Positions 39,757 to 60,052 of a DNA stretch of 60,228 nt are shown here, one piece after another. Location: positions 1-60,228 of IMG/VR virus record IMGVR_UViG_3300017971_000310; one strand, 5' to 3'. Both the position numbers and the translations under genes were made by a program. Position 1 is the stretch's first letter; the number at the start of each line of letters is the position of its first letter. The stretch is from a virus. The notes beneath the pieces were generated by a model. It was not told where the DNA came from and searched no databases. It saw only the letters and a program-made list of their open reading frames with translations.

Positions 39757-40349
39757 CTAATAACCTCAAAGCTTTCTGCGTAGTCCCATCCCATCTGCGC
39801 GCCTCTGACACGTGCCAAGGACCTTATAAGATCTCCCTGCATATACGGCCGGTCCTTCTGGCTTTCAAAATACTCTAGGGCGCTTGTCTTAAGCGCCACA
39901 TCCGGTTCCTCTAGTTGTATGAACCCAGCAGCCTCAAAGTCTATGTTATTCCAGGGGAGCTCATAACCTAATATGCACGTATGCTTAAATGCACGCATAG
40001 CCTCCCTAGTTACAGTAGCATGGTCTTGGTGTATATCGAACGTATTGGGAGTCAACACAATATCTACCTGCCCACGCATTTCAACCAAATTCTCTAGAAT
40101 GCCTTGGCGTTGACGTGGGAAGTCCCTAGTGGGGTAACGATAGATTTTTATATTGTTGACAGGAATTCCTAGAACATGGGCAGCCTTAGTCACCTCTGCT
40201 GTTGCTACTGCTGGGGCTATAGTCTGTGTAGAAAGAGAGAATACAGTATAGTAAATCTCATCCCCCCTGCCTATAAAATATGGTATGCTACCTCCAGCCC
40301 CCAAGATACCGTCATCTATGTGAGGGCTGAGGACCAATATACGTCTCAT
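39741..40349 (-). CDS. LmbE/PIG-L-like deacetylase
   Basis: A 202-residue protein. 'ILVLSPHIDDGILGAGGSIPYF' is the zinc-binding H-x-D-D motif and 'FDIHQDHATVTREAM' supplies the third His. These enzymes deacetylate GlcNAc-type sugars, including GlcNAc-PI, mycothiol precursors and antibiotic intermediates. Here it may modify a cell-wall, nucleotide or glycan substrate; the genomic neighbours (ThiF-like gene upstream) give no clear substrate. It overlaps both flanking genes. Confidence 0.75.
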   Translation of the reverse strand: MRRILVLSPHIDDGILGAGGSIPYFIGRGDEIYYTVFSLSTQTIAPAVATAEVTKAAHVLGIPVNNIKIYRYPTRDFPRQRQGILENLVEMRGQVDIVLTPNTFDIHQDHATVTREAMRAFKHTCILGYELPWNNIDFEAAGFIQLEEPDVALKTSALEYFESQKDRPYMQGDLIRSLARVRGAQMGWDYAESFEVIRWIVK

Positions 40350-40899
40350 GAGCCTCCTTCTCTGTAATGATCAGCTCGCTCTGTTGTCCAGTTTCAATAA
40401 ATCGTTCTATAGCATTGGTAGCTGCTGCTGCTGTTAATCTCAGTATCCTTGCACCTAATAGATGGGTACATACTGGGTTATTTTCCACTTCCTCTTGTGG
40501 CATAGGATATCTGTTGTTCCACGCTATTAGCCCAACCCTATCCACAGACACCCCAATGTGTATAGTCGACCGTAGAGGGGATTGTGTAAATCCCCTAGCA
40601 GCAGGATTATCAAATGTATCTACTACTAATGGTTCCCCATCCTGTGCCGGCAGATACCATCGTATATTTCTTTCTACCCGCACAAATATAGGGTTGGTTC
40701 TTCTACTATTCTTAAGATATAGCATTTCCGCCAATGTCTGAACTTTGGTCATCCCAATGTGTACTCTACTATAAGCAGATGTCCCAATGTTCTCTTCTCC
40801 AACCCTATCGTTATCGATTAGATGTAGGGTGTGATCCCCGACCAGGTGCATAGCTATTTGACTACCCAATGCTCCGCAGCCAGCCAGAACGATATCCAT
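40312..40899 (-). CDS. ThiF/E1-like adenylyltransferase
   Basis: A 195-residue protein. 'DIVLAGCGALGSQIAMHL' is the Rossmann nucleotide loop, 'LIDNDRVGEENIGTSAYSRVHIGMTKV' the acidic strand with the Asn and Lys of E1 enzymes, and 'VVDTFDNPAARG' the second Asp motif. 'NPVCTHLLG' could hold a thioester-forming Cys. E1-like enzymes adenylate the C-terminal Gly of ubiquitin-like or sulfur-carrier proteins. A candidate substrate is encoded at 45319-45606. It is smaller than typical E1/MoeB (about 240 residues). Confidence 0.75.
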   Translation of the reverse strand: MDIVLAGCGALGSQIAMHLVGDHTLHLIDNDRVGEENIGTSAYSRVHIGMTKVQTLAEMLYLKNSRRTNPIFVRVERNIRWYLPAQDGEPLVVDTFDNPAARGFTQSPLRSTIHIGVSVDRVGLIAWNNRYPMPQEEVENNPVCTHLLGARILRLTAAAATNAIERFIETGQQSELIITEKEAHETYIGPQPSHR

Positions 40900-41154
40900 T
40901 CACTGTCCTTTCATAGGGACACAGCTTATGCCCCTAGCATACACTATGTAGCATATATTATTATGGTCTACATCTATAAACCTGGTCACTTGATAGGTCT
41001 GCTGTGGCCCATCCACCCAAAATACCTCACCCTGTATAATGGGTTCTCGAATAACCTCGACAGGCGTAACTAGCTTTGTGCTAGGAGCACAAGAGTTTAT
41101 TATAATGCTTACAATAACTATAAGCACAAGACAAAAGAATATTCTTATATCCAT
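40900..41154 (-). CDS. Small putative lipoprotein
   Basis: An 84-residue protein with a hydrophobic signal (residues 5-19) ending in 'IINSC', with Cys22 a candidate lipid attachment site; Asn at -2 is not ideal. The exported part (about 62 residues) has two further Cys residues ('NNICYIVYARGISCVP') that may form a disulfide. Phage lipoproteins of this size sometimes block superinfection or form outer spanins. No evidence separates these here. Confidence 0.55.
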   Translation of the reverse strand: MDIRIFFCLVLIVIVSIIINSCAPSTKLVTPVEVIREPIIQGEVFWVDGPQQTYQVTRFIDVDHNNICYIVYARGISCVPMKGQ

Positions 41155-41993
41155 AGCCCCTCATCCATATCGAATCTGTGTAGTTCTCGAGCACGTTGCA
41201 TAGCCAAGGCTAGTGAAGCTAAGTCATGCTCGCTGTCTGTTCCTTCCATACAGATACCAGCGGAGATTGCCATACCACTTCTAGATATAGTGGCGGTATG
41301 TCTGGCCCCACCATATTCCCAGGTCACATTATACCCGTCGCTGGCATTGGACCAATCTAACAGCTCTGCTCCAACTAAAGACAGCTGATAACGAAACTCC
41401 CCCTCTACGCGTTTACGGTCTTCTAGAAGAGCCTGTTGTTGCCTAGCCTGCTCCCTGACTTTACGTAAAGTGTCTAGTCTATCTTGTACCAATGCTCTGG
41501 CCCGGAGCATATCAGGAGTGGTTTCTCTGGACAGAAACGGATATAGATGAAACAACAAGTTCCCACCCAGTACACCAGCAGACACAGGGTCCAATGGGAC
41601 TGGCTGCCCACGAACTAGATGTATCGGTCTTGGGATGGCTTCTTTCCAGCCCTTTTGTGAGGCATCACTAGCATTGTAGGGAGTACATAACCATGTAGTA
41701 TCAGAGAGGGGATACAACATTATAACGTTTATGTGCCGCAAGGAGACTAGAAAACGCAGATACTCTTCTGGTGTTGCCTCCCGATCTAGCTCAGCCATGT
41801 GTTCAAGGGTGGGATGTGCGTCCATTTTCCACCAGCCCACAGGCCAGTTTCGTACCCTAAATGTATAGGGAAACCCATCCTGGACAATGAATACCTCTGT
41901 AGTTTCACTGTCCAGAATGGGAGCTATAAAGGGACGGAGCGTATGCTGTTCTAGCCTATTCAGTGCCTCAAATAAACTAGCCCCACTAGACAT
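41145..41993 (-). CDS. Hypothetical protein in the Ro60-like operon
   Basis: A 282-residue protein; ATG 41993 is preferred over an upstream TTG at 42047 that lies inside the previous gene. Predicted mixed alpha/beta ('VFIVQDGFPYTFRVRNWPVGWW'), with a coiled-coil segment near the middle ('LRKVREQARQQQALLEDRKRV') and an acidic C-terminus. No family recognised. It lies two genes after the Ro60-like gene, so it may act in the same system. Confidence 0.6.
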   Translation of the reverse strand: MSSGASLFEALNRLEQHTLRPFIAPILDSETTEVFIVQDGFPYTFRVRNWPVGWWKMDAHPTLEHMAELDREATPEEYLRFLVSLRHINVIMLYPLSDTTWLCTPYNASDASQKGWKEAIPRPIHLVRGQPVPLDPVSAGVLGGNLLFHLYPFLSRETTPDMLRARALVQDRLDTLRKVREQARQQQALLEDRKRVEGEFRYQLSLVGAELLDWSNASDGYNVTWEYGGARHTATISRSGMAISAGICMEGTDSEHDLASLALAMQRARELHRFDMDEGLWI

Positions 41994-42336
41994 CCTCTGG
42001 TCCAATCCACGTATTGTATATAGCTGTTCCCTGCTTCTTCCAACCAAATCTACCAGAGATTGTATCCCCGTTCATATGTGGAATCATTTCCACCATATCC
42101 CTGACCGTGAATCTAAACTTTATACCATGTATGTCTTCGAATACTAATCCCCCTGTACTGCGAGAGCTGAACCAATCCACCAATTTTAACGTAGACACGA
42201 AGGGGCGGGCTACCCGTAGTGCATATCTCTCTTGGTAGTATTTACTCCAGATTTCACCATAGCTATTCACAAACCAGGCATCCCCATGTGCTGGTTGCCC
42301 CGTTTCCTTATGGTAAGGAATCTTGAACTTAGCCAT
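41986..42336 (-). CDS. Hypothetical protein next to Ro60-like gene
   Basis: A 116-residue protein; ATG 42336 has GGAGG seven bases upstream and overlaps the Ro60-like stop region. 'GDAWFVNSYGEIWSKYYQERYALRVARP' and 'VFEDIHGIKFRFTVRDMVEMIP' suggest a compact beta-rich domain with many aromatic and basic residues. Not recognised. Close coupling suggests a partner of the Ro60-like protein. Confidence 0.6.
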   Translation of the reverse strand: MAKFKIPYHKETGQPAHGDAWFVNSYGEIWSKYYQERYALRVARPFVSTLKLVDWFSSRSTGGLVFEDIHGIKFRFTVRDMVEMIPHMNGDTISGRFGWKKQGTAIYNTWIGPEDV

Positions 42337-43825
42337 TCTTAACCTCCAATATGCGGGGAATCTCTGTCTGTACAATTACATCCAAGATTGAAGTAACGGC
42401 CGGTCCACCCAATAGAGCTGTCACTTGATCGTAGATATAATAGTCCCCTGTGAATGGAAATACTTGAATTGTATAGCCTTCCTGTCTCAAATAACTCTGC
42501 AAAACATTGGGGTCCGTACCACGAAATTGTATCATTACCAATACAGGGGTCTTACCTGTTTCCTCCTCATACTGCCTCAATTCTCTAGACAACTGATTAC
42601 GATTCTCGCCCCCATCCGTTAACAATACGATCTTATCCGGGTTTCTGCCCATTCTACGTGATAGCTTGAACGCCTCGCTATGTAATGTGCCACCACCAGC
42701 CCGGACACCCCTAAGGACTTTCTTAACGTCTTGATAGGGATGACCAGTATCAGCTACTTTAAGCTGTCTGGCCACATCGTTATGGATAAAAATCTTACCG
42801 TCTTCGCACAAGGGCAATATTCGCTCGGCGAATCTTGGAGCCTCTTCGATGGGCACCTGCATTGAATAACTATGGTCTAGGTAAATGTCTGTCTGTCCCC
42901 CAATTGGTTCTTGAGCCGCAATAGCCTTTTCCTGGGATGCAGCCATAGCGGCATCTACCTCTTTATCTGATCCCTTGGAGCTCTTACGGTGGTCACTGGA
43001 TGCCACTGATTTAGTGGCCTGGCTGATTTTATCAATATAAGCCTGCTTAAACTCTGGAATATTGAGTAACCCCAATCGCTCGACCCTTGCCCGGATGTTC
43101 TGTGCTTGGGTGGGGGTCATAACGGCTAGCCTAATCAACCAGCTAGCGGTTGACCCGTCCAATACAGATTGTAGGATGCGGTCGTCTATCCTATTGTCAA
43201 CCGCCAATTGCATTTGTTCCCTGGGATTATCTGCGTTGGCTATCTGCTTGAGAACACCCAATTTGCTATCCTTTGGTACAGGACCATATAGCAAAGCATG
43301 CAGATATGGGCATTGTTCGGGATCCATATGATAGTGACGCCACACTGCCTTACCCGCCGACCTATTCTGTAGCATAACCCCATCGGCCCGGCCGTGGTCG
43401 CCTTCCAGCATCCCATAATAGTGTTTCATAATGGTGGCCATTCTACGGGGCAGCTTCTTGCTAGACTCTCGGATATAACGTTCAATCCTAAAGATGCGAT
43501 ATGGGGGCAACCCATCGAGGTTATCTGGCTCTGTACTGTATACATCACTACCCAAGAGTAGCGCCTGACCAGCATTACGATAATCCAGGGCCAGATCAAA
43601 GTCCCCTACTATCAGCGGATTGCTCTGTAGCAGGGCTATAATGGCACAGTCCTGCTGATCTCGAATAGCTGACTTTTGGGCCATATATACACAAGCCCTT
43701 GCTGTAAAATCGGGGTCCTCCTGTAACGCTCCAGTCAAGGCTGGAACAAGTTTAGAATAGTCCTTATGGGGAACCTCCATAAATGATCTCCACAAAGCCA
43801 TCCGTGCCTGAGATTGCTCTACCAT
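42329..43825 (-). CDS. Ro60-like RNA-binding protein: TROVE-like helical module plus vWA domain
   Basis: A 498-residue protein with AAGGAG before ATG 43825. Residues about 1-275 are all-helical with HEAT-like repeats, as in the TROVE ring of Ro60 ('LTGALQEDPDFTARACVYMAQKSAIRDQ', 'LPRRMATIMKHYYGML'). Residues about 312-498 form a von Willebrand A domain with a complete metal site: Asp317-x-Ser319-x-Ser321, Thr380 and Asp404 (LLTDGGENRN). Ro60 proteins bind misfolded RNAs and Y RNAs and deliver RNA to nucleases. Two tRNA-like RNAs lie just upstream. The vWA part is certain; TROVE identity is likely but inferred from fold pattern. Confidence 0.7.
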   Translation of the reverse strand: MVEQSQARMALWRSFMEVPHKDYSKLVPALTGALQEDPDFTARACVYMAQKSAIRDQQDCAIIALLQSNPLIVGDFDLALDYRNAGQALLLGSDVYSTEPDNLDGLPPYRIFRIERYIRESSKKLPRRMATIMKHYYGMLEGDHGRADGVMLQNRSAGKAVWRHYHMDPEQCPYLHALLYGPVPKDSKLGVLKQIANADNPREQMQLAVDNRIDDRILQSVLDGSTASWLIRLAVMTPTQAQNIRARVERLGLLNIPEFKQAYIDKISQATKSVASSDHRKSSKGSDKEVDAAMAASQEKAIAAQEPIGGQTDIYLDHSYSMQVPIEEAPRFAERILPLCEDGKIFIHNDVARQLKVADTGHPYQDVKKVLRGVRAGGGTLHSEAFKLSRRMGRNPDKIVLLTDGGENRNQLSRELRQYEEETGKTPVLVMIQFRGTDPNVLQSYLRQEGYTIQVFPFTGDYYIYDQVTALLGGPAVTSILDVIVQTEIPRILEVKNG

Positions 43826-43826
43826 T

Positions 43827-44050
43827 TTACTCCTTTCTTATGGTTGCTATTGTTAACTTTAACTTCCACTTGGGATGATCTACAGCTACGAACTCTATAG
43901 GAGCTCCAGCAATAGTCCGATATAACTCGACTAGACTAGACTATATGCAGTAGATAACTCCACAGGGCCGCATAAATCTGTTATATCCTCCCAGACTTTA
44001 CCATCCGTAGAAACCTCTAATTTAGCTGCCGTTGCTTTATATATAGTCAT
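43827..44050 (-). pseudogene. Small gene broken by a 5-bp tandem duplication, before the Ro60-like gene
   Basis: From ATG 44050 the frame reads MTIYKATAAKLEVSTDGKVWE... but meets TAG after 39 codons. The break sits in three copies of GACTA (plus strand). With one copy fewer, the frame runs on without a stop through 'VELYRTIAGAPIEFVAVDHPKW' to a TAA two bases before the Ro60-like start, giving about 72 residues. The intact N-terminus resembles that of the tail tube protein (KLEISVDDCVSWTDIS). Its ribosome-binding site is weak. A reversible slippage switch is possible. Confidence 0.65.
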
Positions 44051-44059
44051 AATAAGAAA

Positions 44060-44081
44060 CAGCCCCGGTTTCCCGGGGCTG
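44060..44081 (-). terminator. Hairpin terminator after the small RNA cluster
   Basis: A 9-bp perfect stem (CAGCCCCGG/CCGGGGCTG) with a four-base loop, followed on the minus strand by GTTTCTTATT. The strong stem and the moderately T-rich tail fit a rho-independent terminator ending the transcript from the promoter at 44715-44742. The Ro60-like gene would then depend on read-through or another promoter. Confidence 0.6.
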
Positions 44082-44215
44082 CCCATCGCCCCAGACCATT
44101 GTCAATAATAATCCACTGCACCGTGAACGCCACACACAATAACTATCGGAGGAGCTTTATGTAGGTCTGGGTTGATCCTTTCTAGTGACGTGGTGGCGTG
44201 TAGTGCTTTATTTGT

Positions 44216-44287
44216 TTCTCTCAGTGGGAATTGAACCCACAACCTATGGTTCCTAATACCATAGCTCTTACATTGAGCTATAAAGAT
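44216..44287 (-). tRNA. tRNA-like gene with anticodon UAG (Leu), atypical
   Basis: The D stem GCTC/GAGC, anticodon stem ATGGT/ACCAT with loop ATTAGGA (anticodon UAG), and T arm GTGGG-TTCAATT-CCCAC are clear. The acceptor stem pairs poorly (ATCTTTA with TGAGAGA; two mismatches and several G-U pairs) and the D loop lacks GG. A leucine anticodon should come with a long variable arm, but this one is short. Function is doubtful or unusual. Confidence 0.55.
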
Positions 44288-44356
44288 TGTGAGCACCAAA
44301 CTAAGTCACGTCGCGTTTTCTTATACAATAGCGTAGTAGCCAACAGAACAATTTTC

Positions 44357-44429
44357 TATACTCGATGGGACTCGAACCCATACTAACGCCATTCCAGGGC
44401 GTTGCCTTTTCCGATTTGGCAACAAGTGT
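44357..44429 (-). tRNA. tRNA-like gene with anticodon GGA (Ser), atypical
   Basis: Acceptor ACACTTG/CGAGTAT with one mismatch, D arm with GG in the loop, anticodon stem ACGCC/GGCGT with loop CTGGAAT (anticodon GGA), and T arm ATGGG-TTCGAGT-CCCAT. The long variable arm expected of tRNA-Ser is missing. It lies between the Leu-type gene and the two long tRNA-like RNAs. Confidence 0.6.
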
Positions 44430-44469
44430 GTGTGTTCCATTCAAAGCCACGCTATTCTATTGTTAAAGG

Positions 44470-44582
44470 AGGGCCGGGCTGGAATCGAACCAGCAAAAGT
44501 TTGTGAATACACATAGTAAGTCACGAAACCGTGTTAGCCTAGGGTATTGTTTCAAACGAGTATAACCACATATACCCGGCCC
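44470..44582 (-). ncRNA. tRNA-like RNA without anticodon arm, candidate Y RNA (copy 1)
   Basis: A 113-nt RNA. GGGCCGG/CCGGCCC forms a perfect acceptor-like stem, GCTGG-TTCGATT-CCAGC a canonical T arm, and GTATA/TATAC a D-like arm. In place of the anticodon arm lies a segment of about 60 nt closed by GUUUG/CAAAC, with an inner hairpin CACG-GUUU-CGUG. No 5-bp stem with 7-base loop can be formed there. The last base is U, followed by CCU. It begins exactly where the upstream copy's CCA ends. This is the layout of bacterial YrlA-type Y RNAs. Confidence 0.6.
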
Positions 44583-44687
44583 TGGCGGGGAGGCGGGCTA
44601 TTAACCCACAAGTTTGTGGACATCGTGAAAAGCCGCGTAACCGCAGTAGCCCAAGAGGTCTTCTAAACAGCACTAATGTGCCTCCCC
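44583..44687 (-). ncRNA. tRNA-like RNA without anticodon arm, candidate Y RNA (copy 2, with CCA)
   Basis: A 105-nt RNA. GGGGAGG/CCTCCCC is a perfect acceptor stem followed by G and an encoded CCA. The T stem is GTGGG/CCCGC with an unusual loop TTAATAG, and GCAC-ATTA-GTGC sits in the D-arm position. The insert in the anticodon position is closed by GUUU/AAAC, has an inner hairpin CUGCG-GUUA-CGCGG, and shares GGCTA, CGGTT, CTT and CACAAACTT with copy 1. It lies about 20 bases after the predicted transcription start. Confidence 0.6.
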
Positions 44688-44714
44688 CATGTAAAGGTTC
44701 CCCAATACACTTAC

Positions 44715-44742
44715 ATTATACCACAGGTTCCGGTCTTGTAAA
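44715..44742 (-). promoter_or_regulatory. Sigma70-like promoter (copy c) of the small RNA cluster
   Basis: On the minus strand TTTACA (44742-44737), a 16-base spacer and a perfect TATAAT (44720-44715) preceded by TGTGG. Spacer AGACCGGAACCTGTGG is almost the same as in the plus-strand copy at 36299-36326. The start point would be near 44708, about 20 bases before the first tRNA-like RNA. Confidence 0.8.
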
Positions 44743-44750
44743 CTAAAATT

Positions 44751-45356
44751 CTACCTCAAATGCCCGATAAAGCTAAGACTACTTTTCCCATGGAGGTATT
44801 GCCAGAGCCCATCATAGTCCAATACCTCTTGCTTACAGAACGTAGTTGGTCCTATAGCCCCCTTCTTCTTGTTACATCGTTTACAGGCTGAGATATAATT
44901 AGACAAGTCATTATCCCCACCCATTTCTAGGGGTATGAAATGGTCCACTGTCATTTGGACGTCTCCCATTTTAGCCCCGCAGTATAAGCACTGAAACCCA
45001 TCCCTGGCCCAGACTTTCTGTTGAATGGCCCCACTAATCGCATACTGCTGTTTACGAACTATGGCTTTGGGGTTCCAGTGTTCATTATCCTTAAAGAATA
45101 CGGGATCATCCGTCTGCTTGAGAATAGCACACCACTCCTCCAGGGTGGGGTCCGCCAGGCAAATATCGTTTGGGACAATTAACTGATTGGCTGTGGGGGA
45201 CATCAATAGTATGTTTTCCCCCTGCCCCTGCAGAAGGATGCCCGATATCTTCAACAGATGTCCAGCATCCTCTATGTATACTGGCCTGTCCGTATTCGGA
45301 TATTTTAACTCGTAGAGTCTACCCATAGGTAAATTCCGCCCCCACCAGAATGACAT
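44751..45356 (-). CDS. HNH endonuclease
   Basis: A 201-residue protein; ATG 45356 has GGAGGG upstream. The C-terminal half is a full HNH domain: 'ARDGFQCLYCGAKMGDVQMTVDHFIPLEMGG' and 'NDLSNYISACKRCNKKKGA', with two CxxC pairs and the DH catalytic element. The N-terminal 120 residues look like a recognition domain. It overlaps the ubiquitin-like candidate by 38 bases and ends just upstream of the RNA cluster promoter. Possibly a homing or restriction-type nuclease. Confidence 0.8.
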   Translation of the reverse strand: MSFWWGRNLPMGRLYELKYPNTDRPVYIEDAGHLLKISGILLQGQGENILLMSPTANQLIVPNDICLADPTLEEWCAILKQTDDPVFFKDNEHWNPKAIVRKQQYAISGAIQQKVWARDGFQCLYCGAKMGDVQMTVDHFIPLEMGGDNDLSNYISACKRCNKKKGAIGPTTFCKQEVLDYDGLWQYLHGKSSLSFIGHLR

Positions 45357-45606
45357 TGCCCTCCGCTGGACGGCTAACCTTACGTCCCCTCAATGCCCCT
45401 GGTTCCATTACATCGGCCATATGGCGCTCAATTCGTTCTAGCAACTGGTCATCGGGAACCAGCATTGGGTCGTCTGGCATAGCAATGTCGCTGTAAGGAA
45501 ACTCGTGGATTTGGGCATCGGCTCCACGTCCCACAATTACCCGTACAATTGGTCCTGTATCCGTAACGGTGACCTCTGTTTCAAATAGTTCAGTATAGGT
45601 GTCCAT
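45319..45606 (-). CDS. Small protein, possible ubiquitin-like (Prok_Ub-type) protein
   Basis: A 95-residue acidic protein with AAAGGAG before the ATG. The middle 'HEFPYSDIAMPDDPMLVPDDQLLERIERHM' resembles the beta-strand, 'LPDP-P-LSPEEV' helix pattern of PRTRC C/Prok_Ub beta-grasp proteins. The sequence ends in Gly ('GAEFTYG'), as an E1 substrate should, though not in Gly-Gly. A ThiF/E1-like gene lies 4.4 kb downstream on the same strand. The assignment is tentative. Confidence 0.4.
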   Translation of the reverse strand: MDTYTELFETEVTVTDTGPIVRVIVGRGADAQIHEFPYSDIAMPDDPMLVPDDQLLERIERHMADVMEPGALRGRKVSRPAEGNVILVGAEFTYG

Positions 45607-59676: not shown

Positions 59677-59750
59677 ATGGGCCGCCCCGGATTTGAACCA
59701 GGAACTGTCGGGTTACAGCCGAGTATGATGCCGATTTCACCAGCGACCCA
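59677..59750 (-). tRNA. tRNA-Tyr (anticodon GTA)
   Basis: Acceptor TGGGTCG/CGGCCCA, D stem GGTG/CATC, anticodon loop CTGTAAC with stem TCGG/CCGA, T arm CCTGG-TTCAAAT-CCGGG. Variable arm is short for a bacterial tRNA-Tyr. Two extra bases lie between the D and anticodon stems. Last base U, no encoded CCA. Confidence 0.75.
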
Positions 59751-59754
59751 GGAG

Positions 59755-59827
59755 TGGATCCGGCAGGGCTCGAACCTGCGACTGACCGTTTATGAGACGG
59801 CTACTCTAACCACTGAGTTACGGATCC
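59755..59827 (-). tRNA. tRNA-Met (anticodon CAT)
   Basis: Perfect acceptor GGATCCG/CGGATCC, D arm ACTC-AGTGGTTA-GAGT, anticodon stem GCCGT/ACGGT with loop CTCATAA, T arm GCAGG-TTCGAGC-CCTGC, last base A. A CAT anticodon may be elongator Met or Ile (after lysidine modification); the acceptor stem does not look like an initiator. Confidence 0.9.
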
Positions 59828-59830
59828 AGC

Positions 59831-59903
59831 ACTCCCGATGCGATTTGAACGCATAACCCCTGGATTAGAAGTCCAGCGCTCTATCCAATTGAGCTACGGG
59901 AGC
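59831..59903 (-). tRNA. tRNA-Arg (anticodon TCT)
   Basis: Acceptor GCTCCCG/CGGGAGT (one terminal G-U pair), D arm GCTC-AATTGGATA-GAGC, anticodon stem CTGGA/TCCAG with loop CTTCTAA, T arm ATGCG-TTCAAAT-CGCAT. It reads AGA and, by wobble, AGG, codons frequent in this A+T-richer genome. Confidence 0.9.
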
Positions 59904-59909
59904 GTATAC

Positions 59910-59979
59910 GGGCCGGGGAGGACTCGACCCTCCAGCACTGGTTTTGGAGACCAGCCGCTTACCATTAACGAACCGACCC
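59910..59979 (-). tRNA. tRNA-Trp (anticodon CCA)
   Basis: Acceptor GGGTCGG/CCGGCCC, D stem CGTT/AGCG with GG in the loop, anticodon stem CTGGT/ACCAG with loop CTCCAAA, T arm GGAGG-GTCGAGT-CCTCC. The first base of the T loop is G rather than T. Confidence 0.85.
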
Positions 59980-59981
59980 CA

Positions 59982-60052
59982 AGCCCCTATCTGGATTCGA
60001 ACCAGAACCGGGGCAGTACAAATGCCCTGCCCTACCATTAGGCTATAGGGGC
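59982..60052 (-). tRNA. tRNA-Thr (anticodon TGT)
   Basis: Perfect acceptor GCCCCTA/TAGGGGC, D arm GCCT-AATGGTA-GGGC, anticodon stem GGGCA/TGCCC with loop TTTGTAC, T stem TCTGG/CCAGA with loop TTCGAAT, last base U as expected for tRNA-Thr. Its 5' end overlaps the last 15 bases of the upstream protein gene. Confidence 0.9.

Follow-up and report, generated by a model that had tools for sequence, protein, structure and literature searches.

Results

A Ro60-like gene and a small RNA cluster on the minus strand

The window analysed here, that is, the whole stretch of 60,228 nucleotides held in IMG/VR as virus record IMGVR_UViG_3300017971_000310, carries on its minus strand, in this order, a promoter, four small RNAs, a terminator-like hairpin and a gene for a Ro60-like protein (43825-42329). 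A first-pass annotation had read this region as a candidate phage-encoded Ro60-Y RNA particle with two tRNA-like RNAs. The features of the locus are as follows.

44715-44742, minus strand: promoter of the RNA cluster, TTTACA-16-TATAAT with extended TG (11 of 12 consensus matches)
44587-44687, minus strand: RNA1, tRNA-like (acceptor, D and T arms), a stem replacing the anticodon arm (predicted fold)
44470-44583, minus strand: RNA2, tRNA-like (acceptor, D and T arms), a stem replacing the anticodon arm (predicted fold)
44323-44460, minus strand: RNA3, tRNA-Ser(GGA)-like body of 73 nt within a paired stem P2/P1 whose 3x3 loop reads CUU/CUA (tRNA call and flank pairing)
44357-44429, minus strand: tRNA-Ser body
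44185-44314, minus strand: RNA4, tRNA-Leu(UAG)-like body of 71 nt within a paired stem P2/P1 whose 5x5 loop reads ACUUA/GCCAC (tRNA call and flank pairing)
44216-44286, minus strand: tRNA-Leu body
44057-44084, minus strand: terminator-like hairpin separating the RNAs from the Ro60-like gene (chance alone would give roughly one such site over that stretch)
42329-43825, minus strand: Ro60-like protein, TROVE ring plus vWA domain, 498 amino acids (fold, profile and metal-site alignment)

The window protein is a Ro60/TROVE-vWA homologue, as judged from sequence profiles and a modelled fold. Single-sequence scans yielded no Pfam (TROVE included) or NCBIfam match, searches of IMG/VR and the PDB with the protein as a single query were likewise without matches, and PHROG 850, annotated as "RNA-binding protein", aligned with it at E 0.011. 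A profile built from 10 relatives, on the other hand, matched the solved TROVE proteins 9l5y/9kop at E 5e-12 over residues 26-395 and Ro60 at E 1.4e-7. AlphaFold gave an unusable model from the single sequence (predicted local distance difference test, pLDDT, 39), and the model was instead taken from a 34-sequence alignment (pLDDT 86.2, predicted template modelling score 0.80). Its structural matches include human Ro60 (9nen, Z 20.1), Deinococcus Rsr (2nvo, Z 19.3), 9kop (Z 19.1) and the "Ro60 dimer from Thermus phage phiLo" (9l5y, Z 17.6), isolated vWA domains score below these (Z 13.9 or less), and the top 11 Foldseek matches are all Ro60/Rsr/TROVE. The model thus combines a helical-repeat ring and a vWA domain in one chain (Z 19-20 over about 436 residues), and the residues of its predicted metal-ion-dependent adhesion site, DxSxS...T...D, are invariant across the 34-sequence alignment (D317, S319, S321, T380 and D404). 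Both the TROVE-like module and the vWA domain with an intact metal site that had been proposed from the sequence alone are therefore borne out, the former through the relative-built profile and the model, which resembles the Ro60/Rsr rings, rather than through the Pfam TROVE family, which stays silent. A predicted structure devoid of a TROVE ring, named beforehand as counting against the annotation, was not what the modelling gave.

Four RNAs with a stem and a tRNA-like body

In their predicted folds, RNA1 and RNA2 have acceptor, D and T arms surrounding one long central arm. RNA2 has a minimum free energy of -38.6 (z -3.0, 0 of 200 shuffles equal) and the T loop UUCGAUU; for RNA1 the corresponding z is -2.1 (8 of 200 shuffles equal), the ensemble is mixed and the T loop degenerate. 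Neither was called a tRNA by ARAGORN or the Rfam tRNA model, and a tRNA-Sec identity for RNA2 was dismissed (23.2 bits vs a cut-off of 47). To look for a tRNA interrupted by an intron, every internal segment of 20-74 nt was deleted in turn: 0 of 1485 and 6 of 2200 deletions gave a tRNA, the six being mutually inconsistent, whereas the same procedure restored a tRNA from most comparable RNAs of other phages (two comparators were without a hit). Since no consistent tRNA ever emerges from RNA1 or RNA2, the earlier description of two tandem RNAs without an anticodon arm stands and that of ordinary tRNAs with introns fails; an intron would also sit poorly with the rRNA-like and empty cargo found at other loci.

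Directly downstream of RNA2, the flanks of the tRNA-Ser body are complementary to each other (duplex -25.9 kcal/mol, 0 of 1000 shuffles equal), as are those of the tRNA-Leu body (-20.9 kcal/mol, 2 of 1000 shuffles equal). An ordinary second tRNA cluster (Tyr, Met, Arg, Trp and Thr) at 59677-60052 of the window has unpaired flanks (P 0.19-0.85 for the five tRNAs). Because each of the two tRNAs is enclosed by pairing flanks, there are four RNAs of this kind rather than the two first annotated, which are real but had been listed without RNA3 and RNA4; the promoter assigned to the cluster was correctly placed. RNA3 and RNA4 have the architecture of Y RNAs, that is, paired ends with an internal loop and an apical module elsewhere. 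By eye, the predicted folds of RNA1 and RNA3 share a 3x3 internal loop, CUA/CUU, and those of RNA2 and RNA4 a 5x5 loop, GCUAA or GCCAC opposite ACUUA. Past the inner stem, each RNA has a tail of the ACAAAC, ACACAC or ACAAUC type; in RNA1 the 3x3 loop is followed by CCACAAAC and in RNA2 the GCUAA/ACUUA loop is followed by CACAAAC.

A bipartite stem element upstream of Ro60-like genes in phages and bacteria

The gene of the first relative, in the 595 kb phage LR756511, has many unusual tRNA genes crowded upstream of it. These tRNA genes share one repeated element, in which two helices, P1 and P2, lie around an internal loop with an nACUU strand opposite a CCNA strand, followed by UACAAAC. A pattern search of IMG/VR with the element alone returned 70 contigs, of which about 67 were chance matches without a paired stem. 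Three genuine element contigs were picked by inspection of the pairing, before any look for the protein, and in all three a Ro60-like gene follows on that strand, 0.8-3 kb downstream. Profile searches extended the family to 59 phage contigs and 75 bacterial genomes (cyanobacteria, Obscuribacterales, planctomycetes, Chloroflexota and others), counts that include near-identical contigs and are thus not all independent.

A scripted search, in which a hit needed the tail, the two helices and the two loop strands, gave for the Ro60-like genes of the eight phages that had defined the motif 37 elements upstream, 0 downstream and 0 in reversed sequence. Outside the motif definition, the respective numbers were 43, 7 and 4 for 38 phage loci and 82, 10 and 2 for 50 bacterial loci. 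As complementarity was itself a search criterion, the evidence lies in these controls and not in the pairing. The 156 elements scoring at least 13.5 comprise 144 distinct P2 pairings and 128 distinct P1 pairings. The phage locus L112 has five scripted elements downstream, not upstream, of its Ro60-like gene. At two other loci (L001 7928 and L087 10503), the element core stands without the ACAAAC tail in the leader of the Ro60-like gene, which suggests autoregulation.

Whole tRNAs, permuted tRNAs and rRNA-like sequences as cargo

In its main form the element is closed and reads P2'-CCNA-P1'-UACAAAC-cargo-P1-ACUU-P2. ARAGORN reads 19 of the 93 cargos above 60 nt as whole tRNAs, and another 48 are circularly permuted tRNAs, i.e. 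they read as tRNAs once circularised; shuffled or reversed cargo gave no tRNA reading at all. The permuted tRNAs keep the acceptor, T, D and anticodon arms. Other elements carry sequences resembling 23S rRNA helices 69-71 (ACGGUCCUAAGGUAGCGA) or just a short loop. Phage elements also include 13 hairpin copies, several of them inserted within tRNA bodies.

Near-identical sequences of 23S rRNA helices 69-71 (GGUCCUAAGGUAGCGA) occur at L001 4702, L165 2268, L177 3863, L191 5310, L198 and L200 5623, upstream of the Ro60-like gene and mostly within a Ro-type stem or adjoining the UACAAAC tail. A further rRNA fragment, corresponding to positions 1076-1161 of the bacterial large-subunit rRNA model, lies just past the Ro60-like gene of a Moorena locus (L167, 7489-7573). 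Some cargo tRNAs have stop-codon anticodons, UUA or CUA (L158 -238 and L166 -840, upstream of the gene; L089 5487-5561; L198 -810).

Conserved neighbouring genes and the syntenic locus L089

The genes around the RNA cluster and the Ro60-like gene are listed below.

45319-45606, minus strand: small protein ending in Gly, candidate ubiquitin-like protein (position as in L089 and profile inclusion)
44751-45356, minus strand: HNH protein (retained at 29 of the 67 phage loci of the module)
41145-42047, minus strand: conserved protein of about 300 amino acids, for which "E2-like" is a working label only (homologues at 33 of 75 bacterial loci)
40312-40899, minus strand: ThiF/E1-like adenylyltransferase (Pfam PF00899, E 1.3e-8)

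The locus L089 shares with the window the gene order Ubl-HNH-RNAs-Ro60-300aa-E1, Ubl standing for the ubiquitin-like protein, which in the window is a candidate. Its Ro60-like protein is 41% identical to that of the window in an alignment, and the HNH protein, the 300-aa protein and ThiF are 50%, 34% and 38% identical, respectively. Both tRNAs of L089 are enclosed by pairing flanks (0-1 of 1000 shuffles equal), and its stems, GUGC-CCG and UU-GCAC with the tail AUACAUAC, are near the canonical form of the element. Among the 75 bacterial loci, homologues of the Ubl-like protein occur at 36, of the 300-aa protein at 33, of ThiF at 27 and of JAB at 8; no JAB was found in the window, and the HNH gene of the module is confined to phages with one exception. 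The window's small Gly-ended protein had no pairwise BLAST match and is in the Ubl profile by construction. The 300-aa protein had no Pfam, NCBIfam or PADLOC match, and PADLOC gave the Ro60-like protein no defence-system annotation and the HNH and E1 proteins generic matches.

Discussion

The window probably encodes a Ro60 protein from a divergent family, here carried by a phage, along with its own set of Y-RNA-like RNAs. Like the known Ro60/Rsr proteins (2nvo, 9nen, 9l5y), its protein is predicted to have a TROVE ring and a vWA domain (413-438 aligned residues, Z 17-20) with the metal site intact. Unlike them, it shares just 12-16% identity with these proteins, it and the bacterial relatives tested are missed by the Pfam TROVE family, and the loci of its type add ubiquitin-like, E1 and 300-aa genes. 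Binding of Y RNA and of the 3' ends of misfolded RNA is a further trait of Ro60/Rsr proteins. Ro60 proteins and YrlA RNAs have both been reported from phages before (PMC7824862; PMC7765460), as has the structure of a phage Ro60 (PDB 9l5y), and the co-occurrence of a Ro60 homologue with tRNA-like RNAs, although real here, is thus not new by itself. What has been observed goes further: the protein fold, the RNA architecture, the co-location of stem element and protein in both phages and bacteria, and the recurring Ubl, E1 and 300-aa genes. The module is conserved, is also chromosomal in bacteria and brings along an E1 and a ubiquitin-like protein, which changes what its function is likely to be.

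The closest parallel among known RNAs is YrlA. In the YrlA consensus (RF02553) the paired ends read CggCgaAUG / AcUuGucGccg and the T arm comes before the D arm; similarly, the element reads P2'-C-CNA and ACUU-G-P2, which resembles the paired-end internal loop of YrlA, its tRNA-like module has the T arm ahead of the D arm, and it adjoins a Ro60 gene. The YrlA-like paired ends, together with the co-location with a gene of Ro60 fold, led us to term the element a Ro-binding stem; human Y1 looks similar as well. Unlike in YrlA, however, the module here is a full tRNA, in ordinary or permuted order, or else a piece resembling rRNA, there are many per locus, and in the window the loop core has diverged. 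The idea that the window RNAs are of YrlA type did not survive the covariance model, which scored 17.7 bits against a cut-off of 69 for a match straddling RNA2 and the tRNA-Ser and gave no match above cut-off in 11 bacterial loci.

The permuted cargo has its own parallel in the permuted tRNA genes of red algae and archaea, in which the tRNA halves are swapped and a short linker joins the acceptor strands. Element cargo shares both traits, but it is found inside a Ro-type stem next to a Ro60-like gene in bacteria and phages, and no bulge-helix-bulge motif or splicing enzyme was identified here. The neighbouring genes, for their part, are reminiscent of PRTRC and other prokaryotic ubiquitin-like operons, with a ThiF/E1, a small Ubl-like protein ending in Gly and, in several relatives, a JAB; in contrast to PRTRC operons they are built around a Ro60-like protein and RNAs, the PRTRC_ThiF matches are far under cut-off and the window has no JAB.

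Overall, we are reasonably confident that the locus specifies a predicted Ro60-Y-like ribonucleoprotein that carries tRNA replicas. Each RNA would be a two-part molecule, consisting of a stem with a short internal loop and a tRNA body that is whole, rearranged or without its anticodon arm. The stem would be the protein-binding part, analogous to that of Y RNAs, and would be bound by the ring. Displayed in this manner, the replicas may lure or sense nucleases directed at tRNAs and ribosomes, or may capture damaged tRNA or rRNA, a role that we put forward tentatively; a nuclease partner or the ubiquitin-like pathway could then receive the outcome. For a phage, the particle might protect, substitute or monitor the RNAs of translation during infection. 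The widest version of this scenario, a Ro60 system shared by bacteria and phages that holds a rack of linear, permuted and stem-grafted tRNA and rRNA replicas, senses or absorbs ribonuclease attack, is coupled to ubiquitin-like conjugation and serves phages as counter-defence, is speculative and on present grounds rather doubtful.

That the bodies are replicas rather than decoding tRNAs is favoured by their size and by the gene content of Calothrix. Leu and Ser tRNAs typically have a long variable arm, and the chromosomal ones of Calothrix measure 82-94 nt; by comparison, the nine whole tRNAs among the cargo that bear a Leu or Ser anticodon all measure 72-77 nt, those of the window measure 73 nt (Ser) and 71 nt (Leu), and none has such an arm. 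The Calothrix genome also holds separate Thr-UGU and Leu-UAG genes.

Several points weigh against this interpretation. The tRNA array of a Calothrix plasmid (L277, G005 C2 10538-12216) likewise has "Leu" tRNAs of 75-78 nt without a long variable arm, which means that short size is by itself no proof of mimicry. The permuted tRNAs, whose arms are canonical and whose anticodons vary, could just as well mature into working tRNAs. The scripted motif search found 0 elements in the window and 0 in L089, because the internal loops have diverged and that of the window is also in the opposite orientation: it has CUU opposite CUA/CCA, the two strands being exchanged relative to the other loci, whose Ro-stem sequence is ACUU / CCNA. 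A degenerate DNA pattern of the window's own core matched no other contig. The window RNAs are consequently Y-like by architecture, position, ACAAAC-like tail and synteny and not by a sequence motif, and binding of their stems by the ring would follow by analogy. To this may be added the partial redundancy of the locus counts, the low identity of the window protein to most relatives (about 20-28%), the finding of no nuclease partner for the Ro60-like system, and a 470 kb phage (L003/L075) with Ro60-like, Ubl-like, JAB and ThiF genes alongside which no RNA elements or tRNA cluster were detectable.

Of the other explanations, a machine for RNA degradation akin to RYPER is unlikely, though it builds upon the closest characterised bacterial system, Rsr-YrlA, in which YrlA, a tRNA mimic, tethers PNPase to Rsr (PMC8394870). 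The tRNA body would by this account dock the PNPase ring of the host onto the Ro60 ring for the degradation of structured RNA. YrlA, however, is one effector module, as opposed to up to a dozen different elements per locus with varied tRNA bodies and rRNA-like cargo, and, the phage HNH protein aside, the module has no conserved nuclease gene. Highly improbable is an ordinary phage tRNA cluster next to an unrelated vWA protein, with RNA1 and RNA2 as decayed tRNAs. tRNA arrays are frequent in phages, and the degenerate T loop and mixed fold of RNA1 would suit decay, but this account is already contradicted by the profile and fold that identify Ro60, by flank pairing that within the window is limited to the two tRNAs of the RNA cluster, and by the recurrence of the arrangement in L089 and further phages and bacteria.

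A tRNA maturation system, in which the stem is intron-like, the protein acts in splicing or processing and permuted genes pass through a circular intermediate opened at the linker, is improbable as well. Algae and archaea process their permuted tRNAs by way of such a circle, and those described here retain the acceptor, T, D and anticodon arms. Moreover, where the element lies in the D arm of phage tRNAs, its deletion restores canonical Arg-UCG, Lys-UUU, Phe-GAA, Tyr and Met tRNAs, RtcB is encoded by all three bacterial genomes tested, and two huge phages have an Rnl2-type ligase. Yet deletion restores no tRNA from RNA1 or RNA2 of the window, 23S-like fragments and short loops serve as cargo too, and the element core, minus its ACAAAC tail, is present in leaders of Ro60 genes. 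Furthermore, RtcB is absent from all element-bearing phage records tested, including those of 595 and 390 kb, and no tRNA endonuclease was identified.

What Ro60 and Y RNAs do has been debated ever since they were identified as lupus autoantigens. Apart from one major Y RNA review, which may hold an earlier description, the literature searched gave no account of a Ro60 clade that escapes Pfam and bears complete or permuted tRNAs, and no paper on permuted tRNAs in phages. The family extends permuted tRNA sequences to bacteria and phages and offers a possible origin for the tRNA-like module of YrlA; were the widest scenario above to hold, tRNA permutation would be a bacterial phenomenon as well and YrlA Y RNAs might derive from permuted tRNAs. 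The family also links Ro60 with prokaryotic ubiquitin-like systems. Finally, RNA partners bearing tRNAs, permuted tRNAs and rRNA-like fragments name candidate targets of Ro60 that are testable in culturable cyanobacteria and planctomycetes.

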